A stretch of 64,000 bases of DNA, taken from NCBI RefSeq assembly GCF_006517235.1, contig NZ_CP041188.1:4650001-4714000 (forward strand). The letters run 5' to 3'. Positions 922-58,063 of this stretch are shown piece by piece. The notes beneath the pieces are model-generated. The model saw only the letters and a list, made by a program, of their open reading frames with translations. It was not told where the DNA came from and did no database searches. Each line of letters starts with the position of its first letter. Positions within the stretch are counted from its first letter, which is position 1. The position numbers and the translations under genes are program-made. The DNA comes from Pseudarthrobacter sp. NIBRBAC000502772 (GTDB taxonomy: Bacteria; Actinomycetota; Actinomycetes; Actinomycetales; Micrococcaceae).

Positions 922-957
922 AGCGGACGACGGCGGGAGGTCCCGCCGTCGTCCGCT
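922..957. terminator. Palindromic element, copy 1 (GG centre)
   Basis: A perfect 17-bp stem (agcggacgacggcggga and complement) with a 2-nt gg centre, lying 12 nt after the NYN-gene stop and 31 nt from the stop of the convergent aldolase gene. No T-tract on either side. One of twelve copies in the window; the position suggests a bidirectional terminator. Confidence 0.8.
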
Positions 958-987
958 CACCTTCAGGGGCGCTGAGCACATGGTGCG

Positions 988-1887
988 TTAGGACGCCACC
1001 AGCGTCCCGTTTACAACGGCTTCGAGTTCCTGCAGGCGCGGAAGCGCCCGTGTTGTCAGCAGTTGCTCGCGGACTTCTGCCGAGACAGCCAGGCTGTCCT
1101 TCCAGAGTGAGCGTCCCGCCATGGCGCCGCCGGCGCCATTTGCGACAGCGATCTCTACCTGCCTGATGAACGTCTCGTGGTCCACACCTGCAGACAGCAC
1201 GGCCCACGGCACGCCGGCAGCCGCCTCGGTGACCAAGGCGCTCGCCTCCCCGGATCCGGGGTACTGCAGCTTAAGCACCTTGGCGCCGCATTCGACCGAG
1301 AGCCGGGCAGAGCTGGCGACCAGTCCGGGGAACGCGGCGGCGTAGGCTTCCTCGCTTTCGCCCTCGAGGCGGTAGACCAGGATCTCGACGATGAGGAGGA
1401 GTCCTTCGTCGGTGCATGCCGTGACGAGCTCGCGGATTTCGTCCGCGACGCGGGAGCCGGCGTCCTGAAGGTCGGGGCGCATGTACCAGAGCATCTTCGC
1501 CACGTCGCCACCGAGTTCACGCACCCTGCGTGGCGTCATTCCCGGGACAAACTTTGTGTAGCGCAGGCCGTCGACGGTGTCGAAACCCGAAGCGTCAAGA
1601 CCTACAACCAGGGCGGTGTCGCGGGAGAGAACGCCCTCATCCGCCACGCGGGGCAGGGCAATCTCAGGGTCGAGCAGAATGGCCGGCGCGGCGTTTCCCA
1701 GGTAGCGGACCAGGTCCACTTTCGCGTCGGAGAGCTGCTCGGCTGTGATGGAGCCCGGCCCGTCCGGTGCGTCGTTCATAACGGCCTTCATGCCGTTGCG
1801 CTGGTCGGCCGCAACGATGAGCATCTTGCCGCCGGCGGTCGAGATCGCTGCCATGCCGCGGCGCTCGAGAGTCGTGAGAGTGTTCAC
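988..1887 (-). CDS. LacD-type class I aldolase (tagatose-1,6-bisphosphate aldolase-like)
   Basis: A 299-residue TIM-barrel aldolase of the DeoC/LacD family. Visible motifs are the N-terminal VAADQRNGM segment and AKVLKLQYPG (about residues 200-210), whose lysine corresponds to the Schiff-base lysine of LacD/YihT aldolases. It should cleave a ketose bisphosphate or related sugar phosphate to DHAP plus an aldehyde. It is the last gene of the minus-strand polyol operon, behind two kinases and two dehydrogenases, so it fits the final cleavage step. A Shine-Dalgarno-like aggag precedes the ATG. The exact substrate (tagatose, fructose or sorbose phosphate) cannot be read from sequence. Confidence 0.82.
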   Translation of the reverse strand: MNTLTTLERRGMAAISTAGGKMLIVAADQRNGMKAVMNDAPDGPGSITAEQLSDAKVDLVRYLGNAAPAILLDPEIALPRVADEGVLSRDTALVVGLDASGFDTVDGLRYTKFVPGMTPRRVRELGGDVAKMLWYMRPDLQDAGSRVADEIRELVTACTDEGLLLIVEILVYRLEGESEEAYAAAFPGLVASSARLSVECGAKVLKLQYPGSGEASALVTEAAAGVPWAVLSAGVDHETFIRQVEIAVANGAGGAMAGRSLWKDSLAVSAEVREQLLTTRALPRLQELEAVVNGTLVAS

Positions 1888-2053
1888 TGGTATCTCCTAA
1901 ATAGATGGTTTGGTTTTGTGAGGTTCTGGACCGGCGGCCGGATGCACCGGAAACCGCCGTGATGAGGGCGCGACAAATCGCGTCTCGAAGGACGTGCGCC
2001 TTGGGAGGCGTGGCCCCTCGGTAGGGAATGGCGGGGTAACCGCTAGCGGCGGC

Positions 2054-2644
2054 TCAGTGCACGGCCTCGCGCACCGCGAAGTCCGACAGGAAGTGCTCGA
2101 GCTGTTGACGCGGCGTAAGTCGGCCATCGATGCGGATATGCCCGACGCCGGGGGCCTGCGTAACCTCCGGAGAGAGGAATCGCCCCGGATTCTTGACCTT
2201 GTCGAGGTCGCGTGCCGCTCCGCGGAGCCGCATGCGCCTCACCACCTCGCCCGGCGGGGTGTCCATCCAGGCGAGGTGCACCCGCGATTCAGGGATCGCG
2301 AGGCGCTCGACGAGGCGTGCCCATGCAGCCGGGAAGGTGCGTTCGGACGTGAACGGGGCAACAACAACCACGCTGTTGCCCAGTGCGAGGTTCTCCCGGG
2401 TGGTGTCGAAGAGGCAGGTGTAGCGAATGTCGTTCACACTCGCACGCACAGCTGGTTGCGCTGTGGGGACATCGACCAGGAATTCGCCGCCCATGTGCTC
2501 AAACAAGGGGTTCGTGACGGTGTCCAGGTCGAGGATGGTCCAGTGGAGCTCGCGGGCCAGGTCATGGGCAAAGGTCGTCTTGCCACTCGCCGGCACCCCG
2601 CAGACGATAATCGCCTCGGATGCGCGTTCTTCGGTCAGGTTCAT
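2054..2644 (-). CDS. P-loop kinase, gluconokinase/AAA-like small-molecule kinase
   Basis: About 196 residues with Walker A GVPASGKTT near the N-terminus, a DLD segment after strand 2, and an arginine-rich lid (RRMRLRGAARD) typical of gluconokinase/shikimate-kinase-like folds. It probably phosphorylates a sugar or sugar phosphate. It sits between the SDR and the aldolase gene of the polyol operon, so a second phosphorylation giving a bisphosphate for the LacD-type aldolase is a reasonable inference. An alternative ATG at 2659 adds five residues; neither start has a strong ribosome site. About 166 nt without recognisable features separate it from the aldolase. Confidence 0.7.
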   Translation of the reverse strand: MNLTEERASEAIIVCGVPASGKTTFAHDLARELHWTILDLDTVTNPLFEHMGGEFLVDVPTAQPAVRASVNDIRYTCLFDTTRENLALGNSVVVVAPFTSERTFPAAWARLVERLAIPESRVHLAWMDTPPGEVVRRMRLRGAARDLDKVKNPGRFLSPEVTQAPGVGHIRIDGRLTPRQQLEHFLSDFAVREAVH

Positions 2645-2699
2645 TGTTATCCATTTCAAACTGAGGTCCGGTCGCAGCGCCCCGCGCCGGAAACGGCGG

Positions 2700-10155: not shown

Positions 10156-10191
10156 AGCGGACGACGGCGGGACCTCCCGCCGTCGTCCGCT
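10156..10191. terminator. Palindromic element, copy 2 (CC centre)
   Basis: A perfect 17-bp stem with a 2-nt cc centre between the convergent lacI-family gene and the amidohydrolase gene, ending 6 nt before the amidohydrolase stop. No T-tract. Confidence 0.8.
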
Positions 10192-18975: not shown

Positions 18976-18986
18976 GGGGTGGGCGG

Positions 18987-19018
18987 CGGACGACGGCGGG
19001 ACGTCCCGCCGTCGTCCG
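18987..19018. repeat. Palindromic element, copy 3 (gapless, divergent context)
   Basis: A perfect 32-bp palindrome with centre ggacgtcc. It is the only copy between two divergent starts (ROK regulator and MFS transporter), upstream of the regulator's -35 box, so it cannot be a simple 3'-end terminator for either gene. Confidence 0.8.
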
Positions 19019-19095
19019 TTTGCGTAGGTGCCCGCGCCGAAAGTACACCGCGGTGACCGTGTCCACGAGCGTCGGTTGTCAGTAAACTGGGACGC

Positions 19096-20532
19096 ATGAC
19101 CGAGCACGAACCGGCCCCGGCCGGCGTCGCAGCGGCTGCAGGCCCGGCCGATGCCGACGCCATCGATACGTCCTTACGCACTCCGGCGCAGCGGTCCCGC
19201 ACGTTCGCGGGGATCCTGGTGAACACCGCCCTCGCCAACATCACCACGAGCTACCTGTGGTTCGCCCTGACGTTCTGGGTGTACCTGGAGACGCGGAACG
19301 TGATCGCCACCGGGGTGATCGGCGGCGCGTACATGCTATTGATCGCCCTTTCCAGCATCAGCTTCGGCACCTACGTGGACCGCTACCGGAAGCTGGCAGT
19401 GATGCGCTTCGCCGCCGGTTTCACGCTGGTGATGTTCGTGCTGTCCGGGGTGATGTTCCTACTAACACCGGCCGCCAGCATGCTGGACCTGACACTGCCG
19501 TGGTTCTGGGTCTTCGCCATGATCATCCTGATCGGTGCGGTGGTGGAAAACATGCGGAACATTGCCCTCTCCACCACGGTCACCATCCTTATCGAGCCTG
19601 ACCGGCGGGCCAACGCCAACGGGATGGTGGGCATGGTGCAAGGGCTGGCATTCATCGTCACCTCCGTGCTCTCGGGGCTGTCGGTGGGATTGCTTGGCAT
19701 GGGGTGGACGATCGTCGTCGCTTTGGTGCTGACGGCCCTGGCCTTCGCGCACTTACTCACGCTGCGCATGCCCGAGGAAGTGCGGGTGGCCGCCACGGAC
19801 GCCCACGGCACGTTCGACCTGCGCGGATCCCTCGCCGCAGTGCTGGCGATTGCCGGGCTGTTCGCGCTGATCCTGTTCTCCACGTTCAACAACTTCATCG
19901 GCGGCGTCTACATGGCGCTGATGGATCCGTACGGCCTGGAGATGTTCCCGGTGGAACTGTGGGGAACCGTCTTCGCAGTCGGCGCCACCGGGTTCATCCT
20001 GGGTGGCGCGGTGATCGGCAAGTTCGGGCTCGGGGCCAACCCGTTGCGCACCATGCTCATCGCGGTGGTCGTCATGGGCGTCCTCGGTGCGGTGTTCACG
20101 GTGCGGGAGTGGGCGTGGCTCTACATCGCCGGCATCTGGCTGTACATGGTCCTGATCCCCTTCGTGGAGGCCGCCGAACAGACGGTCATCCAGCGGGTGG
20201 TGCCGTTGCCGCGGCAGGGCCGGGTGTTCGGATTCGCCATGGCATTCGAGTCCGCGGCAGCGCCGATCACCGCGTTCCTCATCGCGCCGATCGCCCAGGT
20301 CTGGATCATCCCGTACGCTCGGTCCACGGAGGGCGCTGCCCAGCTGGCTCCGCTGCTCGGCGAGGGCGTCTCCCGCGGCATCGCCCTGGTGTTCCTGGTG
20401 GCCGGCATCATCATGATCGCCGCCGCGTTGCTGGCCTTCCTGACCCCGGTCTACCGCCGGGTCTCGGCGACGTATGCGCAGGCAGCTGCCGAGGCGCCGG
20501 AGACGGCGGAATCGCCCCCTCCGGATAAGTAG
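19096..20532 (+). CDS. Major facilitator superfamily transporter
   Basis: 478 residues with about twelve membrane segments, an Ala/Pro/Glu-rich N-terminal cytoplasmic tail and the loop 2-3 motif SFGTYVDRYRKLAVMR, characteristic of MFS drug/metabolite exporters. Insertion-rich loops before segment 7 and a Pro/Glu tail are visible. It is transcribed away from the ROK operon and is convergent with the GPP34 gene, with palindrome copy 4 between. Substrate unknown. Confidence 0.85.
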   Translation: MTEHEPAPAGVAAAAGPADADAIDTSLRTPAQRSRTFAGILVNTALANITTSYLWFALTFWVYLETRNVIATGVIGGAYMLLIALSSISFGTYVDRYRKLAVMRFAAGFTLVMFVLSGVMFLLTPAASMLDLTLPWFWVFAMIILIGAVVENMRNIALSTTVTILIEPDRRANANGMVGMVQGLAFIVTSVLSGLSVGLLGMGWTIVVALVLTALAFAHLLTLRMPEEVRVAATDAHGTFDLRGSLAAVLAIAGLFALILFSTFNNFIGGVYMALMDPYGLEMFPVELWGTVFAVGATGFILGGAVIGKFGLGANPLRTMLIAVVVMGVLGAVFTVREWAWLYIAGIWLYMVLIPFVEAAEQTVIQRVVPLPRQGRVFGFAMAFESAAAPITAFLIAPIAQVWIIPYARSTEGAAQLAPLLGEGVSRGIALVFLVAGIIMIAAALLAFLTPVYRRVSATYAQAAAEAPETAESPPPDK

Positions 20533-20543
20533 GAACTTACAGA

Positions 20544-20581
20544 AACCGGACGACGGCGGGACCTCCCGCCGTCGTCCGGTT
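20544..20581. terminator. Palindromic element, copy 4 (CC centre)
   Basis: An 18-bp stem with cc centre; the outer bases are changed in both arms (accgg/ccggt instead of agcgg/ccgct), a compensatory difference that preserves pairing. Located 12 nt after the MFS stop and 2 nt before the GPP34 stop (convergent). Confidence 0.82.
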
Positions 20582-23385: not shown

Positions 23386-24072
23386 CTATTTGGGGACGGG
23401 AACGGACGACGGCGGGACGTCCCGCCGTCGTACGCTTGCGTTGGGTGCCGCTGGCCGTCGCGCGGTGAGCACCGCGTTGATGAACCAGACAGGCAGCGTG
23501 AGTCCGCAGGCAACCGTCAGGGGCGGCAACACCATGACAGGCACACACGCCACACCGACCGCTACCGCCAGCAGCGACCGGCCCGGACGGCGCAGTGCGG
23601 CGCTCACGGCCGACTTCACCATGACGCCGGCCGTGAGAACGTCGTTGTCCGGTTCGCTGGCCAGCACGATGTAGTTCACGGTGAACGCCAGCACGGCCAG
23701 GAGTATGGGCAGCTGGGCCCCGAGCAGGACGACACTCATGGGCGTCGGGTGGCCGGCAAGCCACAGCATATTCGCCGTGACCACTCCAAAAGCCAGGGGA
23801 ATGCCGGCGGCGGCCGGCAGGTCCCTGCGCCAGGACGTTCGCACGGAGCGGACCACACCGAGGAAGGCCTCGTCGTCAGTGTGGCCGATGGACCGCAGCA
23901 CCCGGGTGGCCCCGACAAGCCCGGAAAGCCACGTCACGACGGGGAGCAAAAAGAGAATGGCCGCGATGTTGGCCAGGAACAGGCTGGAGGGATAGCGCAG
24001 GAGTCCCAGGGACGCTGCTGCCAGGCCCTCCGGCCTCGATCCGCCAGGCCCGGACCCGTTAAGTGTCGTCAT
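23386..24072 (-). CDS. YesL-like (DUF624) membrane protein with repeat-derived C-terminus
   Basis: 228 residues with about five membrane segments (for example SLFLANIAAILFLLPVVTWL) and the DUF624/YesL pattern. In Bacillus, yesL lies in the rhamnogalacturonan locus; here it is the last gene behind two heparinase-like genes, overlapping the upstream stop by 4 nt. The last 17 or so residues (SVRRRDVPPSSVPVPK) are translated from palindromic element copy 5, so the element appears to have replaced the original stop. Role unknown, perhaps an accessory of carbohydrate uptake. Confidence 0.78.
   Translation of the reverse strand: MTTLNGSGPGGSRPEGLAAASLGLLRYPSSLFLANIAAILFLLPVVTWLSGLVGATRVLRSIGHTDDEAFLGVVRSVRTSWRRDLPAAAGIPLAFGVVTANMLWLAGHPTPMSVVLLGAQLPILLAVLAFTVNYIVLASEPDNDVLTAGVMVKSAVSAALRRPGRSLLAVAVGVACVPVMVLPPLTVACGLTLPVWFINAVLTARRPAAPNASVRRRDVPPSSVPVPK
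23403..23434. repeat. Palindromic element, copy 5 (gapless, one mismatch, inside a gene 3' end)
   Basis: A 32-nt palindrome with centre ggacgtcc and one mismatch (position 23432), followed by the conserved tail cgcttgcgttgggtgccgct. It lies inside the last codons of the YesL-like gene. A degraded half copy (agcggacaacggcg) is visible at 23357-23370. Confidence 0.8.
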
Positions 24073-34086: not shown

Positions 34087-35277
34087 GTGCCCCCTCCAGC
34101 GGACGGCGTACCGGCGGGCACATCCAAGGCGTTGTGGGTGCTTTATGCGGACACCTTCATCATGGCTGTCGGGTTCTACATGCTCATCCCGCTGCTGGCC
34201 TTCCACCTCCTCGAAGACCTCTCGCTCACCATCGCGTTCGTCGGAGTTCTCACGGCAGTGCGGTCCGCGTCCCAGAACGGGCTTATGCCGCTGTCCGGCT
34301 GGATCGCCGACCGCATTGACTACAAGAAGGCCATCGCGGTGGGGGTGCTCGTACGCGCCGCTGGGTTCGCCTTGCTCGGGACCGTCGATTCGGTGCCGCT
34401 GTTGGTTGCCGCTTCCATCCTTTCCGGACTTGGCGGGGCACTGTTCCACCCGGCCAGCTACGCCGCGTACACCGCCCTCGCAGAAGGCAGGGACTCGGTG
34501 CGCGTTTATTCGACGCGCGAAATGATCTCCAACCTGGGGTTCGTCATCGGACCGATGATCGGCGGCCTTCTGGCCGGATTCGACTTCAAATGGGTCAGCC
34601 TGGGCGCCGCGCTGCTCTTTCTTGTCGCCTTCATTTTCACTGTCGCTGGGCTCCCCGCGGGACTTTCAGCACGGAATCCTTCCGCGTCAGGCATCCGTGA
34701 CGTGCTGTCAAACCGCGGGTTTCTTCGGTACTGTGCACTCGCCAGCGCCCTGTGGCTGCTCGCCTCGCAGCTCTACCTCGTCGTTCCCATCCGGGCCGGA
34801 GATGTTCTCCCGGGACCCGTGGGCGTGGGACTCGTCTACACCGCCGCCGCTGTTCTTATGGTCGTCACGATGCTTCCCCTGACCGCTTTCGTAGCCCGCC
34901 GTTTATCCGCACGCGCCATTCTGGGCGCCGGCGCTCTGTCTCTTGGTGCCGGCATAGCCGTCATGGGGCTGTGGGGCACAACGGCGGGGCTGCTCGCCGG
35001 AGTCGGTCTCTTCACCGTCGGCCAAATGCTCTCGCAGCCCGTGATGAATGCAGTGGTCGCAGACTTTGCCCGCGGCGGATCCATCGCCTCGCACTTCGGC
35101 GTTTTTGGCCTGGCTCAAGCCGCGGGCAGCGTCGTCGGCAATCTGGTTGGCGGCCTCCTTTACACAATCGCCGGCGAGGCTTCCGCTGTCGCGCTCGTGC
35201 CCTGGTTCGTGTTTTTCGGCTGGGGAGGTCTCGTCGCTGTTGCGTTCTGGACCCGGGGTCCGCGTCCGGAGCAGTGA
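34087..35277 (+). CDS. MFS transporter of the uronide locus
   Basis: 396 residues from GTG 34087 (taagg 6 nt upstream, 8 nt after the esterase stop), about twelve membrane segments, loop 2-3 motif SGWIADRIDYKKAIAVG. It may export deacetylated by-products or import monomers; direction is not readable. Its stop codon is 1 nt before palindromic element copy 6. Confidence 0.82.
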   Translation: MPPPADGVPAGTSKALWVLYADTFIMAVGFYMLIPLLAFHLLEDLSLTIAFVGVLTAVRSASQNGLMPLSGWIADRIDYKKAIAVGVLVRAAGFALLGTVDSVPLLVAASILSGLGGALFHPASYAAYTALAEGRDSVRVYSTREMISNLGFVIGPMIGGLLAGFDFKWVSLGAALLFLVAFIFTVAGLPAGLSARNPSASGIRDVLSNRGFLRYCALASALWLLASQLYLVVPIRAGDVLPGPVGVGLVYTAAAVLMVVTMLPLTAFVARRLSARAILGAGALSLGAGIAVMGLWGTTAGLLAGVGLFTVGQMLSQPVMNAVVADFARGGSIASHFGVFGLAQAAGSVVGNLVGGLLYTIAGEASAVALVPWFVFFGWGGLVAVAFWTRGPRPEQ

Positions 35278-35278
35278 A

Positions 35279-35310
35279 CGGACGACGGCGGGACGTCCCG
35301 CCGTCGTCCG
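35279..35310. terminator. Palindromic element, copy 6 (gapless)
   Basis: A perfect 32-bp palindrome immediately after the MFS stop, followed by the conserved tail (cttgcattgggtgccgctcc to 35345) shared with copies 5, 8 and 10. The 318-nt gap to the PEBP gene contains only this element and a gene remnant. Confidence 0.82.
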
Positions 35311-35379
35311 CTTGCATTGGGTGCCGCTCCCCTACAGCGCCGACCTGGGAATCACCAAGTACGACCGGAATCCGCAGCC

Positions 35380-38254: not shown

Positions 38255-38292
38255 GAGCGGACGACGGCGGGACCTCCCGCCATCGTCCGCTC
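38255..38292. terminator. Palindromic element, copy 7 (CC centre, one mismatch)
   Basis: An 18-bp stem with one mismatch (38265/38282) between the truncated restriction-like ORF and the convergent GntR gene. Confidence 0.78.
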
Positions 38293-44293: not shown

Positions 44294-44318
44294 CGTCCTC
44301 ACCACAAAGGAAGAAAAA

Positions 44319-45171: not shown

Positions 45172-45208
45172 AGCGGACGACGGCGGGAGGCACCCGCCGT
45201 CGTCCGCT
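45172..45208. terminator. Palindromic element, copy 8 (5-nt loop aggca)
   Basis: A 16-bp stem with loop aggca, 73 nt after the SDR stop, followed by the conserved tail cttccgttgggtgccactcc to 45241. It starts a 740-nt gene-poor stretch (45099-45838) that also holds two remnants and small repeats. Confidence 0.8.
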
Positions 45209-45239
45209 TCCGTTGGGTGCCACTCCCCTACAGCGCCGA

Positions 45240-45268
45240 CCAGCCGCCGTCGGACGCGAGGATGGCGC
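45240..45268. repeat. 29-nt dispersed repeat, copy A
   Basis: Identical over 29 nt to 53361-53389. On the minus strand it encodes AILASDGGW, here continuing SAL and a stop (45229-45231), the usual C-terminus of some SDR proteins. It looks like a 3' fragment of a lost SDR gene. Confidence 0.7.
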
Positions 45269-45396: not shown

Positions 45397-45491
45397 CCGT
45401 CGTTGTTTCTGGGTCGACGCTTGCTTAACCCAATCGGATACTTTAAATCCCCAATAGAAACAGCGATGAATATGAAAGCTACGTCCGCTGA

Positions 45492-45818: not shown

Positions 45819-45838
45819 GCTTAGTAGGGGGCGGGCTG

Positions 45839-47059: not shown

Positions 47060-47133
47060 ACCTACACGCTGACCCGACTGCCGGGCGAGACCCGGTTACG
47101 CAGACCCCGTGCGCCTGCCGTAGCACCCCGATT

Positions 47134-47184
47134 AAACTCAGGCGGACGACGGCGGGAGGCACCCGCCGTCGTCCGCTTGAGTTT
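47134..47184. terminator. Palindromic element, copy 9 (longest stem)
   Basis: The usual core with loop aggca, extended by aaactca/tgagttt to a 23-bp stem with one G-T pair. Between the GH16 gene and the convergent small gene (stop at 47192). Confidence 0.85.
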
Positions 47185-47191
47185 GCGGCAA

Positions 47192-47455
47192 TTACTGTCT
47201 GTGGTGTTCGGCAGTGGCCACGCGGGCCTCGCGCGACTCCGTCTTGTTTGCCGGGAGGCCTGCGTATGTCCAGATGCAGGGCCGGCCGGAATCGCTCGGA
47301 ATGAGCTGGCCCTCGTAGAGCTGAATGCTCGCTCCCGTGGGGCTCCGCCAGACGCCGGTCAGCTCGCAGTGTGTTCCGGTGGCCTGCTGGCGTGGCACCG
47401 ACAGGTTGATGACGCGGCGGGCCCGTTTCTCGGCCACGGGGAGTCTCCGCTTCAC
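47192..47455 (-). CDS. Small hypothetical protein in the DUF1445 operon
   Basis: 87 residues, basic N-terminus ([15 protein letters not shown]), no membrane segment, one pair of cysteines. Its ATG overlaps the stop of the DUF1445 gene by 4 nt, which argues that it is real. Family not recognised. It ends 8 nt before palindromic element copy 9. Confidence 0.6.
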
Positions 47456-49616: not shown

Positions 49617-49777
49617 GTTAATCCTCCATGAAGAGAGTTGATGTCATCCGAGTGCGGGATGGATGGTGCTGGTGCCTGTTTCTGTCCCCGCCTGCGGCGT
49701 TGCAGGGTGGGACATTTGGGCGTTTAGGCGGCTTGCCGTCAGGGTGGCTGCGGAAGTCGGAAAATGCGGCGATCGTT

Positions 49778-49808
49778 GGATTGTTGAACAATCCTCTTGT
49801 TGAACAAG
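49778..49808. promoter_or_regulatory. Two tandem GntR-type operators
   Basis: GGATTGTTGAACAATCC (49778-49794) and CTTGTTGAACAAG (49796-49808), sharing TTGTTGAACAA, with centres 16 bp apart. They lie in the 367-nt gap upstream of the MHS operon. No regulator gene is adjacent. The remainder of the gap holds palindromic element copy 10 and nothing else recognisable. Confidence 0.7.
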
Positions 49809-49932
49809 TTACGCGACGCAGATCACACCGTCAAGGGGTTCATGGGATTCAGACGCCGCCGGCAGTTCCGGAGTTGAGGGCGCGGGGCATCGCAGGAGGG
49901 GCCGGGCATTGGGCTACTTCGAGGGCACGGGA

Positions 49933-49972
49933 AAGCGGACGACGGCAGGAGGCTCCCCGCCGTCGTCCGCTT
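49933..49972. terminator. Palindromic element, copy 10 (loop aggct, one mismatch)
   Basis: A 17-bp stem with one mismatch (49947/49958), followed by the conserved tail ccgtttggtgcc. It lies 11 nt beyond the stop of the metallophosphatase gene (minus strand), a 3'-end position in a tandem arrangement. Confidence 0.78.
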
Positions 49973-49983
49973 CCGTTTGGTGC

Positions 49984-51027
49984 CTACTGGCTGAAGGGGA
50001 CCTTCTCCCAGCTCAGGACATCATCGCTGTCGCTGCTGTTGCCGGCGACGGTGAACCGAACGTAGTTGGTAGCGTTGGCCGATCCGTCCACGGTGATGCG
50101 CTGCAGGTCATCCGCGGCGGGCTGGCCGTAGACCTCCAGCCATGGTGAGCCGTCCGCCAGCGGCTGGTTCTCGGCAAAGACGTGGCTGTCGCCGTTTATG
50201 AGATAGACCGGGCGGTCAAAGCGGTTGGTCTCTTCAATGATGGCCGCAACGATCTCCCGGAACCCGGAGACCGTTTCCGGGTTGGCAGTGGCCGCGGCGA
50301 GCAGCGACGGATCAAACATGTCGGCCTGCGTCATCAGCACTACGGCGCGGTCGTTGCGGCGCTCGGCGTCGGTGAACGTGTCACGTATCTGGCCCAGGAC
50401 GGCATCCGTCCGGTGCTCAACTTCGGCCAGCTGCTCGGGCGTGGGCGTGGTTTCGCCCAGGCCGCTCCAGGGAAGCAGCGAGTTGTTGCTGCCCTGGACG
50501 TTCACCACGGAGAAGGCCACGCGGTTCTGGGTGAAGCGGACATTTTCCGGAAGCCCAAGCTCCAACTGCGTCTTGACCGGCATGGTGGCGCCCAGGGTCT
50601 TGCCGGGCTCGTCGAAGAAGACCTCCCGCAGCTTGTCCAGCCGTTCCAGCGGGTTGTAGGCGCCGTTGTTGGTGCGGTGGCAGTCCACCCACTCGTTGTC
50701 GCCCGGGGTGAAGACCAGCGGGTGCTCGAAGGTGTCGAACTGGGAGCGGATGTTGGCGAAGTACTCGTCTGAGCACACCGAGGAGCCGTTCTTGATGTCG
50801 CCCACATGGGTGACGAACTTCAGTGCACTGTCGGCGTTGATGTCCTGGATGCGGGACGGGAACTTGGCGATTTCGGCGTCGCCGTAGGGGATGTCGCCGA
50901 TGACGCCAAAGGTGAAAGCCTGGCTGTCAGAGGTGTTATTGGCTGCGATGGCGGGCTGGGACGCAAGGAGGCCGAGCGCCAGGACGGCCGCCGCCGCCGT
51001 CGTCGTTTTCACGGTCTTTGAAGGCAT
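49984..51027 (-). CDS. Secreted metallophosphoesterase (calcineurin-like)
   Basis: 347 residues. Signal peptide (AAAVLALGLLASQPAIA, ending before about residue 30), then metal-binding motifs GVIGDIPYGD, VTHVGDIKNG, FTPGDNEWVD and NGDSHVF. The order D...GD...GDNE...GDSH is that of calcineurin-like phosphatases. Next to the glycerophosphodiesterase-like gene (34-nt gap), it probably frees phosphate from organic phosphates outside the cell. Confidence 0.85.
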   Translation of the reverse strand: MPSKTVKTTTAAAAVLALGLLASQPAIAANNTSDSQAFTFGVIGDIPYGDAEIAKFPSRIQDINADSALKFVTHVGDIKNGSSVCSDEYFANIRSQFDTFEHPLVFTPGDNEWVDCHRTNNGAYNPLERLDKLREVFFDEPGKTLGATMPVKTQLELGLPENVRFTQNRVAFSVVNVQGSNNSLLPWSGLGETTPTPEQLAEVEHRTDAVLGQIRDTFTDAERRNDRAVVLMTQADMFDPSLLAAATANPETVSGFREIVAAIIEETNRFDRPVYLINGDSHVFAENQPLADGSPWLEVYGQPAADDLQRITVDGSANATNYVRFTVAGNSSDSDDVLSWEKVPFSQ

Positions 51028-51061
51028 GGTGGTGTTCCTGTGTCTGCTGGGTGGGGCGGCT

Positions 51062-51919
51062 TTAGAGCGTGCGGGCGGCGAGGAACTGTTCCAATGCCTC
51101 AAGGTCGTCGGTGTTGATGTGGTCCACGCCGGCGTCGAAGAGTTCGTTCCAGACAGCTTCGCGTGCGGAGCCGGGCTGGTCAGGGGTGGCCCAGAAGCGG
51201 ACCCGGTAGCCCTTGGCGTGGGCGTCAGTCACGTATGCCTGGAGCTTGGTGCGTTCGGCCTCGGGCATGGGGCCCACACCCTGCCAGGTGAAGAGTTTGG
51301 TCCAGTTGTCGCTGATCAGCGGCATCAGCCCGGCAGGCATACCGGAGGTGAGGTTAGCGGAGCGTCCGTCATAGAAGCCGAACCGCTTTTCCTGCGCCTG
51401 CATGGTGGCCAAGGGGCGGTTTCCGCTGATGACGGCGGTGACGGGCCCGGTGTTGGTGGTGCCGTTGCTGTAGCGGCTCATGATGTCCCGGTGCTCGGCC
51501 AGTTCCTGCTCGATGGCGGCGTAGGTGGCCTCGCCTTCACTCTTGATGTCGATCAGGAGCTGCAGGCTGCCGTCCCAGTGGGGGTAAACGCTGTGGCCCT
51601 GGTTCCGGACCAGCTCGTCCAGGGGATCGAGGTAGAGGCTCTCGAGAGTTACTCCGGGCTTGGCATCCTCAACGTCGTGGGCCACCAGAAGTTCGCCGTC
51701 CACCAGCCACACGTCGGCCTCAACGCTGGTGAACCCATGCTCCAGCGCATCGAACAGGGGACGATCGTGCTCATAGTCGTTGTGGGCATGGGCTGCGGCC
51801 AGCGGCTGTCCGAGGACCACGGACGACGGCGCGTTGGCGGGATTCGCAGCCGGCGGGGCGGCGATTCCGGTCAGGGAAGCTAGGACGGCGAGGGCGGCAA
51901 GGGTGCTTTTCACGAACAC
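51062..51919 (-). CDS. Secreted PI-PLC/GDPD-fold phosphodiesterase, AIM6-like
   Basis: 285 residues: signal peptide, then AAHAHNDYEHDRPLFDALEHG and SVEADVWLVDGELLVAHD, the catalytic His and Glu/Asp set of the PLC-like phosphodiesterase superfamily closest to AIM6-type proteins; LLIDIKSEG follows. GTG 51919 is 6 nt after ggag. It likely hydrolyses glycerophosphodiesters. Forms an operon with the metallophosphoesterase gene. Confidence 0.82.
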   Translation of the reverse strand: MFVKSTLAALAVLASLTGIAAPPAANPANAPSSVVLGQPLAAAHAHNDYEHDRPLFDALEHGFTSVEADVWLVDGELLVAHDVEDAKPGVTLESLYLDPLDELVRNQGHSVYPHWDGSLQLLIDIKSEGEATYAAIEQELAEHRDIMSRYSNGTTNTGPVTAVISGNRPLATMQAQEKRFGFYDGRSANLTSGMPAGLMPLISDNWTKLFTWQGVGPMPEAERTKLQAYVTDAHAKGYRVRFWATPDQPGSAREAVWNELFDAGVDHINTDDLEALEQFLAARTL

Positions 51920-51950
51920 GGAGTACTCCTACGCATACAGGGGATTCTCC

Positions 51951-51974
51951 GCCCGGCCGGTTGGGGGGCCGGGC
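51951..51974 (-). terminator. Hairpin after the kinase gene
   Basis: 8-bp stem gcccggcc/ggccgggc with an 8-nt loop in the 171-nt gap between the kinase stop and the phosphodiesterase start. Another short dyad (gccgtgc/gcacggc, 52066-52081) sits nearer the stop. No T-run on the minus-strand 3' side. Confidence 0.4.
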
Positions 51975-52090
51975 AAAAGAGGGCGTGAAAAGACTGCCGG
52001 TCGCGGAAAAACGGCGAAGGACCTCCCGGTTGCCGGACGGTGAACTGGAAGGGACCAATGCCCGTGCCGTGCCAGCACGGCCAGCCTGCG

Positions 52091-53266
52091 TTACGGCGCC
52101 CCCAGGTAAACGCTGACGGTGGTCCCGCCGCTGGGGCTGGGAGAGATTTCCAGCCGTCCCCTGTGCGCGGCAGCGATCCTGGCACACGTGGCCAGGCCCA
52201 GCCCCGTGCCGGCAGGGTCGCCTTCCCGGTGCAGGCGGACGAGCGGTTCAACCACCCGGCGCCGGTCCCCCGCGCCGATCCCCTTGCCGTTGTCCTCCAC
52301 CCGCACCAGGACGCCGGCTCCGGAGTCCTGCCCGGTGACGCTGATGACCGGGGGAACGTCCTGGCGGCGGTAGGCCACCGCGTTCTGGATCAGGTTCTGC
52401 AGCGCTACCCGCATCTGGCTTTCGTCAGCGTCGAAAACAAAGTCCTCGCATTGCACCACGGCACCGGCTTCCCGCAGGCCCAGGCTGAGGTCATCGGCGA
52501 CCTCCTTCACCAGGGCAGCCAGCGACAGCCGGGACCTGGACAGCGAACCGCCGATGGACGCGAACGCAAGCAGTTCCTCCACCATGGACAGCATCCTCCG
52601 CGCACTGCTGCCCACGATTTCCAGATACTCTGCAGCCTCCTCCGTCTGGCCCCTTGCGGCGTCCGTGGCACCCAGCTCGACGTAACCCAGGATGGAGGTC
52701 AGCGGATTGCGGAGGTCATGGCTGACCCGGCCGGTGAATTCAGCAAGCCGTTCATTGCTGCCCTTGGCTTCATCGAGGGCGTCGGCCAGGGCACCGTGGA
52801 GTGCCGTGACCCGCCGGGCAGCCAGCAGGCGGGTGTGCAGGACGAAGGGGTCCAACGGCTTGGTCACGTAGTCGTCCGCCCCGGCCCGCATGCCTTCCAG
52901 CACGTCCTCTTGGGCGCCGTGCGAGGTCAGCAGTACAACGTACGTATAGGAGCTTGTCTCGGCGGCCCGGATCGCCCGGCACAGGTCAAACCCGTCGAGC
53001 CCGGGCATCATCAGGTCGCTAACCACCACCTGGGGACGCCGCTCCAGGTAAAGCTGCCACGCCGTGTCACCGTCCGCGGCCACAATGCATTTATGCCCGA
53101 ATTTCTCGACGGCGGCCTTCGCCACGAGCAGGGACCCTTCGTCGTCGTCGACAACCAGCACCGTCATGGCGGCCCCGGAGTTGCCCAGCAGTCCGGAAAT
53201 CTTCGCGACGTCCACGTCCGGGCGGCCCAGCCCGCCCGGCGCACTCCACTTCGAATCAACAGTCAT
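52091..53266 (-). CDS. Soluble REC-histidine kinase hybrid
   Basis: 391 residues in the order receiver (about 35-150: VLVVDDDE, phospho-Asp in VVSDLMMPG, Lys in TKPLDP), HisKA (H-box VSHDLRNPLTSILGY), HATPase (NLIQNAVAY, VEDNGKGIG, GTGLGLATCARI). There are no membrane segments, so it is cytoplasmic. The N-terminal REC suggests it is itself controlled by another kinase. ATG 53266 is preceded by gggggcct; a start at 53167 would also keep all domains. No partner regulator lies nearby. Confidence 0.85.
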   Translation of the reverse strand: MTVDSKWSAPGGLGRPDVDVAKISGLLGNSGAAMTVLVVDDDEGSLLVAKAAVEKFGHKCIVAADGDTAWQLYLERRPQVVVSDLMMPGLDGFDLCRAIRAAETSSYTYVVLLTSHGAQEDVLEGMRAGADDYVTKPLDPFVLHTRLLAARRVTALHGALADALDEAKGSNERLAEFTGRVSHDLRNPLTSILGYVELGATDAARGQTEEAAEYLEIVGSSARRMLSMVEELLAFASIGGSLSRSRLSLAALVKEVADDLSLGLREAGAVVQCEDFVFDADESQMRVALQNLIQNAVAYRRQDVPPVISVTGQDSGAGVLVRVEDNGKGIGAGDRRRVVEPLVRLHREGDPAGTGLGLATCARIAAAHRGRLEISPSPSGGTTVSVYLGAP

Positions 53267-53360
53267 GAGGCCCCCAGGCCATTTATCGTCACGAAGCCAG
53301 CCCACAATAGGTCCGCTGGACCTAATCGTCCCACGGACCACGCTGGCAGGGATCGAACCA

Positions 53361-53389
53361 CCAGCCGCCGTCGGACGCGAGGATGGCGC
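53361..53389. repeat. 29-nt dispersed repeat, copy B
   Basis: Identical to 45240-45268. On the minus strand AILASDGGW continues here as WFDPCQRG. It lies in the 201-nt divergent gap between the kinase and the zinc-ribbon gene and overlaps no intact gene. Confidence 0.7.
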
Positions 53390-53467
53390 TCCAATTCCAG
53401 GGCGCCCGCACGGACCAGCAGGCATAAGCTAGATGCAGAACGTCTCTTCCAACGCCGGGAGGTCATC

Positions 53468-53791
53468 GTGGACACTGAAACCGCCGATGTTATCGATCAT
53501 GATGTCACCACCATCATCTGCGTGTGCGGCAACACCGTCAGCAAGGACGGGTTGATTCAGGCGAACTCAGAAGGCGTCCCGGTCTTCATCGGAGAGACCA
53601 GCCCGGTCCCAGCGGAGCTGGCGGAATGGCCGGCGGATGGGGAGCTCTACACGCTGTGTCCGTCATGCGGCCGCGTGTACCGTGACTCGGTCATCGAGGA
53701 GACGGGGACCGCACCCGTTGCTTTCCGGGTCGACGTCAGCGCCGGCCCAATGGCCGAGGCCATCCGGGTCCACTGGAACCTCAGCACGTAG
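53468..53791 (+). CDS. Small protein with a putative zinc-binding CxC...CPSC motif
   Basis: 107 residues from GTG 53468 (gggagg 6 nt upstream). IICVCGNTV and LCPSCGRVY give a CxC-CxxC arrangement that looks like a split zinc ribbon. No membrane segment, no recognised family. Open reading frame without good competitors, and the start is well supported. Confidence 0.65.
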   Translation: MDTETADVIDHDVTTIICVCGNTVSKDGLIQANSEGVPVFIGETSPVPAELAEWPADGELYTLCPSCGRVYRDSVIEETGTAPVAFRVDVSAGPMAEAIRVHWNLST

Positions 53792-53881
53792 GCCAGGCCG
53801 CGTCCTCAGAGGCCAGAACCTGGCAGAGCGGCAGACCTTCCGAACCTTTCATTGGACGGGGAGGGGCCGCATGATAGGCGC

Positions 53882-55246
53882 ATGACTGAAATCGCATCAG
53901 CCGACGAATCCGCTGTTGCCAAGGCTCAGCGCGAGCTCGAAGCGGCCGGCGTCCGCACCGTGATCGGCACGGTGGTGAATGCTTCGGGCATCACGCTGGC
54001 CAAGAGCGTTCCGTTAGCCCGGCTCAAGGCCTTCCACCAATCCGGGATGGGCGCTGCCCCCGTCTGGCATGTTTTCACCATCGACGGCGGGATAGCGTTC
54101 ACGGACAGCATCACCCCCGTTGGCGATATGCGCCTCAAGATCGATATTGGGGGACTCCGTGTCCTGCAGGCTGGCCGGGCATGGGCACCGGGCAGCCTTT
54201 TTGAACAGGACGGGGCCGCGTCTCCGGCCTGTGCCCGCGGCCTTCTGGCCGGCGTCCACGGCAGCCTCGACGAGGCCGGATACCAGGCACTCGTGGGCCA
54301 CGAACTGGAATTCTTCCTCGTCGCCCCGGACGGTTCAGCACTGGAAACCACACCCTGGGTTCCGTACGGGGCAACCGGCCTCCTGGACCGGTCGGAATTC
54401 CTCGATGATCTGCTGTCGGTGCTGAACCATGCCGGCATTCCGATGGAACAGATCCACGCCGAGTACGGCAGGAACCAGTTCGAGTTTTCGCTTCCCCCTG
54501 CTTCGCCGGTTCAGGCAGCGGACACCGTGGTCGTTGCCAAGATCATCGTTGGCATCGTCGCCCGGGCCCACGGCATGCAGGCCTCGTTCTCCCCGCTGCC
54601 CTTTCCCGGCACCGTTGGAAACGGAGCCCACCAGCACTTTTCGTTCCACAAGAACGGCCTGCCGCTGTTCTCCGGCGGCAGCGGACCGCACGGCATCTGC
54701 CCCGAGGGAGGCGCGGCCATTGGCGGAATCATCGCAGGACTGCCCGATATCCAGGGTTTCCTCACGGGATCAATCTTGTCCGGAAGCCGGTTGGCACCCG
54801 GCACGTGGTCGGGCGCCTACTTATGCTGGGGCCTGGAAAACCGGGAGGCCTCAGTGCGTTTTCTGAACGAGGGCAACAGCAATCCGCACGGAGCCAACGT
54901 CGAGGTGAAAATCGTCGACCCGTCGGCAAACGTGTATCTGGCCTCCGCAGCCATCCTCGCGCTCGCCCTTGACGGCATCCGTACCGGACGCAGGCTTCCG
55001 GCAGAGATCCCGGGTGACCCCGGACGGCTTTCGGAAGACGAGCGGCACCGGGCCAACGTCCGGCTGCTCCCAAACTTCCCCACCGCCATCATCGACACGC
55101 TGGACACGTCACGCCTTGCACGCGGGCTTCTCGGAGACGCGATCGTCGACGCCACGGTGGCCGTCCGGCGCTACGAACAGCGAATCGCGGCGGACCTCTC
55201 GCCGGAGGAGCTTGCTGAACGCTTTCGGCTTGCCTGGTCGATCTGA
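53882..55246 (+). CDS. Glutamine synthetase-like protein, FluG C-terminal-type
   Basis: 454 residues, GS-I-like: GHELEFFLVAPDG, EYGRNQFEFSLPP, FPGTVGNGAHQHFSF, NREASVRFL and ANVEVKIVDPSANVYLASAAIL. The N-terminal beta-grasp domain is short and differs from GlnA (VNASGITLAKSVPLARL). It overlaps the amidohydrolase gene by 1 nt. GS-like plus amidohydrolase in one unit mirrors the two halves of fungal FluG. It probably forms a gamma-glutamyl amide of an unknown amine. Confidence 0.85.
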   Translation: MTEIASADESAVAKAQRELEAAGVRTVIGTVVNASGITLAKSVPLARLKAFHQSGMGAAPVWHVFTIDGGIAFTDSITPVGDMRLKIDIGGLRVLQAGRAWAPGSLFEQDGAASPACARGLLAGVHGSLDEAGYQALVGHELEFFLVAPDGSALETTPWVPYGATGLLDRSEFLDDLLSVLNHAGIPMEQIHAEYGRNQFEFSLPPASPVQAADTVVVAKIIVGIVARAHGMQASFSPLPFPGTVGNGAHQHFSFHKNGLPLFSGGSGPHGICPEGGAAIGGIIAGLPDIQGFLTGSILSGSRLAPGTWSGAYLCWGLENREASVRFLNEGNSNPHGANVEVKIVDPSANVYLASAAILALALDGIRTGRRLPAEIPGDPGRLSEDERHRANVRLLPNFPTAIIDTLDTSRLARGLLGDAIVDATVAVRRYEQRIAADLSPEELAERFRLAWSI

Positions 55247-56388
55247 TGGCGGGCGGTTCTTTCCCGGACTTCGTCGAACAAGTCAGGCTGATTGATCACC
55301 ACGTGCATGGCGCGTTCCACGCTGACGGTGATGAGGCACGCTTTCAGAACTCGCTCAACGAGGGAAACACCGAACCACTGGCCAAGCCCGAGGACACCTA
55401 TGACACCCAAATCGGGCTCGCCATCCGGCGCTGGTGCAGCGGCATTCTGGATTTGCCGCGGCACGCTTCACCAGCGGACTACTGGAGCCGGCGCTCCGAG
55501 CTTGGAGAACTCGAGGTGTGCCGCCGCATGACCCGCGCTGCCGGCGTGAGCGACTGGCTGATCGATACAGGACTGGATGCCGCTGGCTACCTCGGCACGG
55601 CGGGCATGGCCGACGTCTCCGCTGGGCGGACCCATGAGATCGTTCGGCTGGAACGGCTCGCCGAGTCTGTGATCCGGGAGATCGCCAATCCGGCAGATTA
55701 CGTCGACGAGTTCGGCAAGCGGCTTCACGAGCTCACCCGCAGCGCCGTGGGCGTCAAAACAGTTCTCGCCTACCGCGCAGGATTCGACCAGGATCTCAGC
55801 CGGCCGGCTCCGGCTGCGGTTGTTGAAGCGGCCCGCCGCTGGCAGGAGAACGCGCACGCCGGCAGCAACGCGAAGCTCACCGATGTGACGCTCATTGCCC
55901 ACGGGATCCACACGGCGGTGTCGATGAAGCTTCCGCTGCAATTCCATGTGGGATTCGGTGACCGCGACCTGGACCTCCACAAAACCAATCCCCTGTACCT
56001 CCTGGATTTTCTGCGGTCCCCCGAAGTCCGGGACACACCCATCATGCTGCTCCACTGCTATCCGTTCGAGCGCGAGGCCGGCTATTTGGCCCACGCCTTT
56101 GAGAACGTCTACCTCGATGTGGGCCTTGCCGTGAACTTCACCGGGTCACGGAGCCGGGATCTGGTGGCCCGCTCATTTGAACTGGCTCCCTTCACGAAAA
56201 TCCTGTACTCCTCCGACGCGTTGGGCCCGGCCGAACTTCACTACCTCGGCGCGAGACTGTGGCGCAACGCAATCACCAAGGTAGTGGGCGGATGGATCGA
56301 CGACGACGACTGTTCCGAGGCAGACGCCCGCAAGATCGTGCAACTCGTCGCACACGACAACGCCCGCCGCGTGTACGCACTCCCCTGA
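55246..56388 (+). CDS. Amidohydrolase, FluG N-terminal-type
   Basis: 380 residues, TIM-barrel amidohydrolase-2 fold: metal site LIDHHVHG at residues 15-22, LPLQFHVGFGD, MLLHCYPFEREAGYLAH, VYLDVGLAVNF and ILYSSDALGPAELHYLGA (late Asp). Translationally coupled to the GS-like gene by a TGATG overlap. It may hydrolyse the gamma-glutamyl product or a related amide; reaction unknown. Confidence 0.85.
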   Translation: MAGGSFPDFVEQVRLIDHHVHGAFHADGDEARFQNSLNEGNTEPLAKPEDTYDTQIGLAIRRWCSGILDLPRHASPADYWSRRSELGELEVCRRMTRAAGVSDWLIDTGLDAAGYLGTAGMADVSAGRTHEIVRLERLAESVIREIANPADYVDEFGKRLHELTRSAVGVKTVLAYRAGFDQDLSRPAPAAVVEAARRWQENAHAGSNAKLTDVTLIAHGIHTAVSMKLPLQFHVGFGDRDLDLHKTNPLYLLDFLRSPEVRDTPIMLLHCYPFEREAGYLAHAFENVYLDVGLAVNFTGSRSRDLVARSFELAPFTKILYSSDALGPAELHYLGARLWRNAITKVVGGWIDDDDCSEADARKIVQLVAHDNARRVYALP

Positions 56389-56441
56389 GCGCCGGCACGA
56401 GATCCGAGCAAGCAGAACGGACATCATGCTGAACCTGGCGC

Positions 56442-56477
56442 AGCGGACGACGGCGGGACCTCCCGCCGTCGTCCGCT
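56442..56477. terminator. Palindromic element, copy 11 (CC centre)
   Basis: A perfect 17-bp stem with cc centre, 53 nt after the amidohydrolase stop and 35 nt before the stop of the convergent membrane-protein gene. Confidence 0.82.
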
Positions 56478-56512
56478 TGAGTCAGTGCCGCACAGCTTGT
56501 GACTCTCTGCCG

Positions 56513-56953
56513 TCAGCACTTCACCGTGGCGCTGCTGTGGATCGCTGAATCCGCTGCCCGCCCGTCGCGCAGGCTGGCCTGGCACTCTGCCGCGCGTGCG
56601 GCGACGTCGCCATGAACGGCAAAAGTAATTGCCTCGACAACAGCGATTTGGCCGGTTGTGTCAGGGACACCGGGAAATTGCACCTGCGGCGCCTCAACTG
56701 CGGCCACCGGCGACTCTTGCGTGGACCGCATGCGAAGAATCGCGATGGCGGAAATAAGGCACCAGGCAACGTTCGTGACCACTGAGGGCCACGCTTCGTG
56801 GACCGCACCATTAATGATGAAGGCACATGCACCGATGAGGTTGGCCACCTGGAAGTGCTTGCCGGCCTTCACCCAACCCATGGAGACAGACAGGTATGCC
56901 GACAGGATCAGAACTGCCCCTGACCAGCCTGCAATTTCCCACATCAGTTCCAT
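56513..56953 (-). CDS. CBU_0592-like membrane protein
   Basis: 146 residues with three hydrophobic segments in the first 80 (EIAGWSGAVLILSAYLSVS, FQVANLIGACAFIINGAV, VVTNVAWCLISAIAIL), the CBU_0592 pattern, then a soluble tail of about 65 residues. ATG 56953 follows aaaggac. Function unknown. Divergent from the LysR gene. Confidence 0.75.
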   Translation of the reverse strand: MELMWEIAGWSGAVLILSAYLSVSMGWVKAGKHFQVANLIGACAFIINGAVHEAWPSVVTNVAWCLISAIAILRMRSTQESPVAAVEAPQVQFPGVPDTTGQIAVVEAITFAVHGDVAARAAECQASLRDGRAADSAIHSSATVKC

Positions 56954-57077
56954 GATGTCCTTTCAGAGGTGATGCCCGTCGTCTCCCGCAGGCCCGTCGT
57001 TTTAACAGCAATTATGAGTAAGACCCACCTTTAGAGCAATTGCATTCCACTGAAGACATGGTTTAGAACTACTTAAC

Positions 57078-58001
57078 ATGGACATCGATCCGCGCAGGCT
57101 GCGCGTGCTTCTTGCTGTTGCCCGCACGGGCGGGGTGCTGGCTGCGGCTGACGAACTGGGAATCAGCCCCTCGGCCGTCTCACAGCAGCTCACCAAATTG
57201 GAAGACGAAACCGGGCATGCCTTGGTGGTTCGCACGCCCAAAGGCTCAGTTTTGACACCCGCCGGCCTGGCAGTGGCGGAAGCCGGCGAGGAGATTGAAC
57301 GTGCTCTCAGCGTTGCCCGCGCCCGGATCGAAGGCGGGGCCACGGTGGCTGGCGTCGTGCGCGTGGGCGGATTCACCAGCTTTGTCAGGACGGTGGTGAT
57401 CCCGCGCCTGCCCGAGTGGCGCACGCAGTACCCGCAATTGCAGATCCGGATCGTCGAGGATGACTTTCCGGACCTGATGCGGCTGCTCCGCCAGCGCCAG
57501 CTCGACGCCGTCGTGGTGGAGCTCGATTCGACCACGGCCGAGCAGCGTTCGCTCTCCGCCGGAATGACTGAGGAGCCCTTGCTGGACGAGCCGTGGAAGC
57601 TGGTGGTCCCTTCCGGTGCCCTGCTCACCACCGAGAACATCGACCTGGCCCGGCTGCCCCTGCCGTGGCTCGGCGTCGACCCAACAGCCGCCAACGCTGC
57701 GGTGCTCGGCCGGCTCCGTCAGTCAACGGGCGCCCAGATGGAGAGTGCGCACCAGTACCAGGAAACACTGACCGCACTCGCACTCGTCGCCGCCGGCGAA
57801 GGAATTGCGATCGTGCCCACCCTGGCACTAAGCGGCATCGCCCACGACGGAGTGGACGTCCTGGACGTCCCCGGACTCGGAACCCGTCGCATCGTTCTGC
57901 GACGGTTCGATCGGCGGCGGTCACCCAGCACGCCGGTGGACACCGTCGCACGCCTGCTGCGGGAATCGGCTGCGGCGTTCGACACACGGTCAACACCCTG
58001 A
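57078..58001 (+). CDS. LysR-family transcriptional regulator
   Basis: 307 residues: helix-turn-helix LAAADELGISPSAVSQQLTKLEDETGHALV and a type 2 binding-like effector domain (VRVGGFTSFVRTVVIPRL, LVAAGEGIAIVPTLAL). The 124-nt gap to the divergent membrane-protein gene has short palindromic pieces such as gcaattgc (57032-57039) that could be LysR sites. Its regulated genes are not certain; the neighbouring membrane protein is the first candidate. Confidence 0.88.
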   Translation: MDIDPRRLRVLLAVARTGGVLAAADELGISPSAVSQQLTKLEDETGHALVVRTPKGSVLTPAGLAVAEAGEEIERALSVARARIEGGATVAGVVRVGGFTSFVRTVVIPRLPEWRTQYPQLQIRIVEDDFPDLMRLLRQRQLDAVVVELDSTTAEQRSLSAGMTEEPLLDEPWKLVVPSGALLTTENIDLARLPLPWLGVDPTAANAAVLGRLRQSTGAQMESAHQYQETLTALALVAAGEGIAIVPTLALSGIAHDGVDVLDVPGLGTRRIVLRRFDRRRSPSTPVDTVARLLRESAAAFDTRSTP

Positions 58002-58025
58002 ACCACCGCGGGGCGGAAACTCAGA

Positions 58026-58063
58026 GAGCGGACGACGGCGGGAGGTCCCGCCGTCGTCCGCTC
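58026..58063. terminator. Palindromic element, copy 12 (GG centre)
   Basis: An 18-bp stem with gg centre between the LysR gene and the convergent arabinofuranosidase gene. Confidence 0.82.

Follow-up and report, generated by a model that had tools for sequence, protein, structure and literature searches.

Twelve copies of a palindrome lie in the stretch of DNA analyzed here, 64,000 nucleotides (nt) of Pseudarthrobacter sp. NIBRBAC000502772 (the window, positions 4,650,001-4,714,000 of a single 4,803,563-base contig; the source genome is labelled G000). They are likely one sequence family of bidirectional transcription terminators, attached to transcription-unit 3' ends within a plastic zone of the chromosome, and the copies are nearly all confined to that one zone. 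A bidirectional terminator family had been proposed from the letters of the window without database searches (hereafter, the sequence-only reading), and the proposal is well supported, as far as DNA can tell, by the position of the palindromes, the covariation of their arms, and their retention at orthologous 3' ends.

Position relative to genes was assessed in zones sampled from 20 genomes, which contain 201 copies of the palindrome. Both neighboring genes could be assigned for 198: 91 copies stand at convergent junctions, 73 between co-directed genes, 17 in divergent gaps, and 17 lie inside or overlap a called gene. Of the 181 intergenic copies, 157 lie closest to a 3' end, so the sampled zones gave no sign of the random placement relative to gene ends that would speak against terminators. 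Convergent junctions are enriched, as had been suggested, with 91/198 copies there although only 304 of 1638 junctions are convergent. For the 164 convergent and co-directed copies, quartiles of the distance past the stop codon are 12, 20, and 34 nt; a GC-rich hairpin just past stop codons, which is a feature of bidirectional terminators, is thus present.

Named loci gave a similar picture. Among those listed for Arthrobacter and its allies, 30 are convergent, 28 co-directed, and 3 divergent, with 6 at locus edges; these loci overlap the same-genus genome set, and only Sinomonas, a separate genus, is a separate sample. Among the Sinomonas loci listed, 6 are convergent, 6 co-directed, none divergent, and 4 at locus edges (median distance 20 nt), meaning that 12/12 copies with readable context are at convergent or co-directed junctions. 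A homologue of a sampled-zone gene occurs in only 2 of 15 Sinomonas loci, so the core there stands mostly beside unrelated genes. The one copy among the loci listed for Promicromonospora is divergent.

All twelve window palindromes were found within a few bases of where the sequence-only reading had put them, and the three types of centre it described (2-nt gg/cc, gapless acgt, and 5-nt loops) are apparent on reading the copies. They are given below with their gene context; genes were called with our own codon-usage script, which missed at least the open reading frames (ORFs) 45839-47059 and 38354-39115.

Palindrome 1, 922..957: centre AGGT; convergent, between a gene ending at 910 (+) and a DeoC/LacD aldolase gene, 988-1887 (-).
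Palindrome 2, 10156..10191: centre ACCT; convergent, between a LacI-type regulator, 9085-10104 (+), and an amidohydrolase, 10197-10985 (-).
Palindrome 3, 18985..19020: centre ACGT; divergent gap between a ROK-family gene, 17786-18940 (-), and an MFS gene, 19096-20532 (+).
Palindrome 4, 20545..20580: centre ACCT, outer pair altered in both arms; convergent, between the MFS gene 19096-20532 (+) and a GPP34 gene, 20584-21222 (-).
Palindrome 5, 23401..23436: centre ACGT, imperfect; overlaps the 3' end of the ORF 23386-24072 (-).
Palindrome 6, 35277..35312: centre ACGT; convergent, between an MFS gene, 34138-35277 (+), and a PEBP gene, 35596-36123 (-).
Palindrome 7, 38256..38291: centre ACCT, one mismatch; between a short ORF (+) ending at 38233 and the ORF 38354-39115 (-).
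Palindrome 8, 45172..45208: 5-nt centre AGGCA; 3' end of an SDR gene, 44319-45098 (+).
Palindrome 9, 47141..47177: 5-nt centre AGGCA; convergent, between a GH16 gene, 45839-47059 (+), and the ORF 47192-47437 (-).
Palindrome 10, 49934..49971: centre AGGCT, imperfect; 3' end of the gene 49984-51027 (-).
Palindrome 11, 56442..56477: centre ACCT; convergent, between an amidohydrolase-domain gene, 55246-56388 (+), and the ORF 56513-56953 (-).
Palindrome 12, 58027..58062: centre AGGT; convergent, between a LysR regulator, 57078-58001 (+), and an alpha-L-arabinofuranosidase-type gene, 58084-59622 (-).

Eight of the nine convergent junctions in the window (counted from our gene calls plus the ORFs 38354-39115 and 45839-47059) bear a palindrome, the sole exception being the one with the debranching-enzyme fragment 21693-22445, and three copies (23401, 45172, and 49934) lie at 3' ends of co-directed genes, both as previously noticed. 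Only the copy at 18985, which sits in a divergent gap, is away from a 3' end. The description of the palindromes as perfect holds for six of the twelve, but in those at 18985, 23401, 35277, 38256, 47141, and 49934 a mismatch is present or the outer bases are unequal. Allowing up to three mismatches, the core has 29 matches in the window, compared to 3.3 expected by shuffling and 10 in the highest of 100 shuffles, and Rfam gave no match in the window above its gathering threshold.

The arms change together in a way expected of a hairpin. Two-sided changes in the 201 copies number 69, compared to 15.9 expected for independent arms, and there are 225 one-sided changes; the change in both arms first noticed in palindrome 4 is therefore real and general to the family. 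Inner core positions 7, 8, 10, 11, and 13 are altered in only 0-4 of the 201 copies, whereas outer positions are altered often and in step (because the caller selects for the core, overall conservation is inflated, unlike the differences between positions). Pairing continues beyond the core, with 643 outer pairs over eight positions (shuffled mean 539, largest of 2000 shuffles 593), and 87 of the 201 copies, including seven of the twelve in the window, are without a continuous outer extension. The 15-nt arms are separated by 4 to 13 nt. Among one-sided pairs, A-C and G-T are nearly equal in number (62 vs. 56), as expected if both strands matter, and folding of the window copies is predicted at -31 to -49 kcal/mol on both strands. 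The same pattern can be seen directly in orthologous copies, e.g., in the gene family of G000 4530489-4530686.

On both sides, the outward flank of the 201 copies tends to T-N-C-S-T-T-T-G-G. Four or more T in a 6-nt stretch occur within the first 12 nt on 144/402 sides, in contrast to 18/401 stretches taken 60-72 nt out, so the sequence-only reading went too far in stating that there is no T-tract; a weak T-rich tract is present. In many copies one side is A-rich and the other T-rich with interruptions, among them palindrome 9, whose outer stem is longer by 7 pairs.

Confinement of the family was examined by searching the whole G000 genome for the form with a 2-nt centre, allowing up to three mismatches. 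Nineteen of the 20 copies found lie within 4,546,472-4,774,937 (228 kb of 4.80 Mb), for which the chance bound is about 6e-22, and the lone copy outside, at 2,645,408, has three mismatches. A looser caller found 30 copies in 4,510,001-4,803,563 and one in eight 20-kb stretches elsewhere, which came from the stretch containing the 2.645-Mb copy; the same caller found no copy in the reversed sequence of the stretches from the 20 genomes, and it overlooks four copies in G001, G048, and G006 that the stricter caller detects. When 117 strong hairpins from 1.25 Mb of G000 (49 pieces, zone included) were grouped by arm sequence, 28 were joined: 23 from the zone and five divergent ones from outside it. 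Convergent gaps 20-600 nt long hold the family in 15/29 cases within the zone vs. 0/102 sampled outside, where 31 gaps hold other hairpins. The family may therefore be called amplified, as had been claimed, in a regional sense. The zone was also considered as a replication terminus and rejected as such, with dnaA at 467,258 and thus about 0.5-0.74 Mb from the zone if the contig is circular.

Exact copies were found in 53 of the 73 genomes from the same genus (G000 included) and in none of 46 genomes from other genera in the order. At least 80 named loci were listed, from Arthrobacter, Pseudarthrobacter, Paenarthrobacter, Sinomonas, Micrococcaceae, and one Promicromonospora. In the clearest well-assembled cases, picked by hand, exact copies are clustered: 9/9 in 115 kb (G058), 7/7 in 62 kb (G068), 5/5 in 49 kb (G063), 6/6 in 39 kb (G040), 4/4 in 50 kb (G016), and 11/13 in 112 kb (G020), with chance probabilities of 4e-6 to 6e-14. 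Clustering is mixed in G029 (5/7 in 68 kb), G026 (4/7 in 44 kb), G011 (4/8 in 59 kb), G001 (3/5), G006 (3/5), and G035 (just 2/5 within 40 kb). DNA comparison with five relatives revealed that blocks of the G000 zone recur in the cluster region in shuffled order, and all 12 relatives read have proteins (7-43 each) that are reciprocal best matches to ones of the G000 zone. The cluster regions of relatives thus correspond at least in part, with turnover of their content; relatives were read around the clusters only, without a control region for comparison, and a gene missing there is not necessarily missing from the genome. The palindromes are a real, zone-bound, sequence-conserved family in Micrococcaceae, probably of bidirectional terminators.

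Regional clustering, dyad symmetry, and a near-fixed inner core would also fit sites bound by a protein that organizes or marks this part of the chromosome. Such sites are known elsewhere, as in matS and parS. We give this explanation hardly any credence, as arm spacing of 4 to 13 nt and co-changing outer pairs are easier to reconcile with a hairpin than with a fixed protein site, placement tracks gene 3' ends, and 20 of the 73 same-genus genomes have no exact copy.

Palindromes are largely inherited with the genes they follow. The orthologue of a palindrome-ended gene keeps its palindrome in 162/193 cases when the downstream gene is the same and in 546/909 when it is different; the base rate, from unit-end genes that have no palindrome, is 330/2750 orthologues with one (as the pairs have genomes in common, these counts are not independent). 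Mean edit distance between palindromes is 3.5 for orthologues with the same neighbor, 5.3 for those with different neighbors, 5.2 within a genome, and 6.2 between genomes; the last two values indicate that copies of one genome are somewhat alike. A called palindrome was present in one genome only, between the same two genes, in 20 entries representing 14 distinct junctions. Seven of these are clear cases of presence and absence, some with another hairpin in place of the palindrome, while four retain a full or degenerate palindrome in the "empty" genome and three more hinge on gene calls.

Movement of a unit together with its 3' end is illustrated by the following module:

19044..20581 (+): transcription-unit module comprising the MFS gene, its leader, and the downstream palindrome; the block is 92.7% identical in the relative G143.

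The matching block in G143 stops at the far edge of the palindrome, and the sequence beyond differs on both sides. In G000 the MFS gene has palindromes on both sides, in G143 downstream only, and in G057 and (degenerate) G171 upstream only. Of 150 same-genus genomes, 93 contain the gene, in varying positions, and its match is interrupted by one stop in some copies (e.g., G006, G029, and G026). What is observed to move, then, is transcription units with their 3' ends, in addition to the seven clear presence/absence junctions.

The seven junctions, together with several window genes that end in a palindrome while having no family member in other sampled zones, are what one would expect of a short mobile element like the repetitive extragenic palindromes (REPs), in which a palindrome, with some flank, is or was copied into gene ends by a trans-acting transposase. 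REPs of the GTAG and CGTC superfamilies, in the part of the account consulted (PMC3733652), are likewise palindromic and intergenic, and prefer convergent and co-directed gaps. However, most REP families are described there as genome-wide, in contrast to the zone-bound palindromes here, and the window copies, judged by eye, have no unpaired GTAG or CGTC foot and have stems exceeding the 5-13 and 8-9 base pairs of the two superfamilies (PMC3733652). The transposase domain Y1_Tnp (PF01797) has no match in G000 vs. matches in 5 of 14 control genomes, other transposase types not having been searched, and no constant ends or target duplications were noticed in the junctions examined, for which no systematic test was made. 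A REP driven by a RAYT was accordingly given a low probability, with Y1 transposase and tag both missing and the stem too long. A phage or plasmid origin was rejected: viral contigs contain no exact match and plasmids none at E 0.01, a search by BLAST that is weak for a 48-nt palindrome, and a single 29-nt phage match carries no weight. "Mobile", one of the terms used in the sequence-only reading, is not supported in the sense of a self-spreading element, and copying by a transposase in the manner of REPs is very improbable.

We read rearrangement in the zone as happening at the ends of units, which the palindromes mark, and the palindrome may have a direct role. Between related pairs of genomes, 107 of 540 rearrangement edges fall within 60 nt of a copy (9.7 if uniform), and after stratifying for gap length and junction type we obtain an odds ratio of 2.15 (z 4.6 for overlapping pairs, z 2.8 for five independent pairs). 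We used the stratified test because raw counts, which suggested a recombination hot spot at tandem junctions (40/40 broken vs. 82/246), did not do so at convergent ones (58/61 vs. 41/46 without a palindrome). Both neighbors had changed for 118/161 blocks with palindromes on both sides, 1002/1676 with one, and 1627/3188 with none. Single comparisons point the same way: G054 has A-palindrome-B where G051 has A-palindrome-X-palindrome-B, homology of the MFS block in G143 terminates at the far edge of the palindrome, and one right flank, shared by palindromes 6 (35277) and 8 (45172) of the window and by copies in G020 and G143, is preceded by four different left sequences. Homology in these shared-flank comparisons starts at palindrome base 1 or 3 in 5/6 and about 10 nt before the palindrome in one.

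One explanation of these data is that the palindromes are sites where transcription units are cut and rejoined, through homologous recombination between copies or breakage of cruciforms, making the region a cassette zone without an integrase and termination a by-product. We hold this to be unlikely. At convergent junctions the five independent pairs show no excess (15/43 broken with a palindrome vs. 31/92 without; 50/105 vs. 87/243 over all pairs), and the co-directed excess may merely reflect that palindromes mark real unit ends. For the 118 moved double-palindrome blocks, the other genome has palindromes on both sides in 18 cases, on one side in 68, and on none in 32. Similarly, where a unit was inserted at a palindrome junction (86 cases), a palindrome is present at both edges in 12, at one in 51, and at none in 23, a split expected if terminators simply ride along. 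One break can also be placed inside a lost gene, by the following feature:

45209..45268 (-): probable relic of the 3' end of a lost convergent gene, reading ...ILASDGGWSAL*, beside palindrome 8.

Palindrome 8 and this relic match the end of a called 226-amino-acid gene in G020 over 97 nt at 88.7%. A longer element with a fixed tail was considered for the tail shared by 35277, 45172, G020, G058, G062, and G143, and rejected; at 45172 the tail looks like a gene-end stub.

A combined role is doubtful but has some chance of being right, namely that this is an exchange region of Micrococcaceae in which the palindrome ends transcription on both sides and also supplies shared sequence for joining, losing, and swapping whole units. 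If so, newcomer units would arrive already insulated, and the core would be kept by recombination or a dedicated factor, and not by folding alone.

Termination in both directions, the explanation we favor, would work through an RNA hairpin that releases RNA polymerase on either strand. Units would be exchanged and duplicated together with their terminators, making the family common in the zone, and a new unit joined beside an existing palindrome could use it from the other side. Several observations weigh against this explanation. Termination does not explain the 24 of 181 intergenic copies that lie closest to a 5' end, and overlap with a called gene is seen for 17 of 198 copies. The earlier claim was that pairing is selected; the arms do covary, but covariation is not proof of selection, as symmetric changes can also be obtained by template switching in palindromes. 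T-tracts in the window are weak, and scanning 44001-60000 for T-runs recovers none of the five copies in that range, making the efficiency of factor-free termination uncertain. Termination alone also does not account for core positions changed in at most 4 of 201 copies; the near-fixed inner core implies a further sequence requirement beyond pairing. Lastly, sampled gaps elsewhere on the chromosome use other hairpins, so termination by itself leaves one sequence in one zone unexplained.

The fixity of the core and the restriction to one zone are the interesting part. What is preserved, beside unrelated genes and across more than one genus, is a sequence and not a fold alone, and its concentration in one reshuffled zone offers a handle on how accessory operons may join actinobacterial chromosomes without disturbing their neighbors. 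The palindromes are also short candidate two-way terminators for hosts of the Arthrobacter group, which tools that depend on T-runs can miss. We found no account of this palindrome family in the titles and abstract openings of the open-licence PMC literature. A table in PMC12306157 gives counts of 5,512 and 705 for Arthrobacter livingstonensis, which we read as predicted palindromes and terminators, respectively; the part seen names no family.

Known bidirectional intrinsic terminators (A-tract, stem, T-tract) are alike in place, stem, two-sided use, and, for many copies, A- and T-rich sides. They differ from the palindromes here, which have one sequence with a near-fixed core, weak T-tracts, and a single zone. 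The paired uptake-signal terminators of Neisseria and Pasteurellaceae also share a conserved word whose inverted pairs form a terminator stem, and the portion of the source consulted reports that long stems accompany fewer T in Neisseria and that uptake signals generally number at least 1,000 (PMC1852404). Unlike those signals, 42 of the 55 exact 14-nt words among the matches listed fall in 4.53-4.78 Mb.

The 9-mer core, CGACGGCGG, was considered as an uptake signal. In the convergent and co-directed gaps sampled outside the zone, no other 9-mer is as common. Its inverted pairs were counted in 79 genomes of the same genus, at 18-72 per genome vs. 0-4 for the pattern reversed, and in 50 genomes from other genera, at 0-33. 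The idea was rejected, as CGACGGCGG also tops the 9-mers of the sampled coding DNA, where its count is only 1.2 times that expected under the Markov model (350 observed vs. 294.8). In G000, 3'-end hairpins at 302,006, 1,296,818, 1,405,566, and 3,651,563 carry CGACGGCGG at the base of the stem and enclose GGTCACC or a GGCACCTGG-like sequence, and hairpins resembling them are also among the places listed in other families of the order.

Two further observations concern genes of the window. The fragment 21693-22445, adjoining its only palindrome-free convergent junction, matches the N-terminal domain of a glycogen-debranching enzyme. Two paralogues with a GPP34 domain (20584-21222 and 22512-23309) are near palindromes, and their family has 17 members in 13 of the 20 sampled zones.

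Other hairpin families were encountered in G000. Long hairpins of the form TTGCTCCGTA...TACGGAGCAA, which lie outside the window and are unrelated to the palindrome family, occur at 1,000,893, 1,075,393, 1,075,758, 1,076,817, and 4,795,692, three of the five within 1.5 kb. Another family, around GACACTTGAGGCCC, has three copies in the sampled G000 sequence, at 1,965,198, 4,320,005, and 4,528,818.

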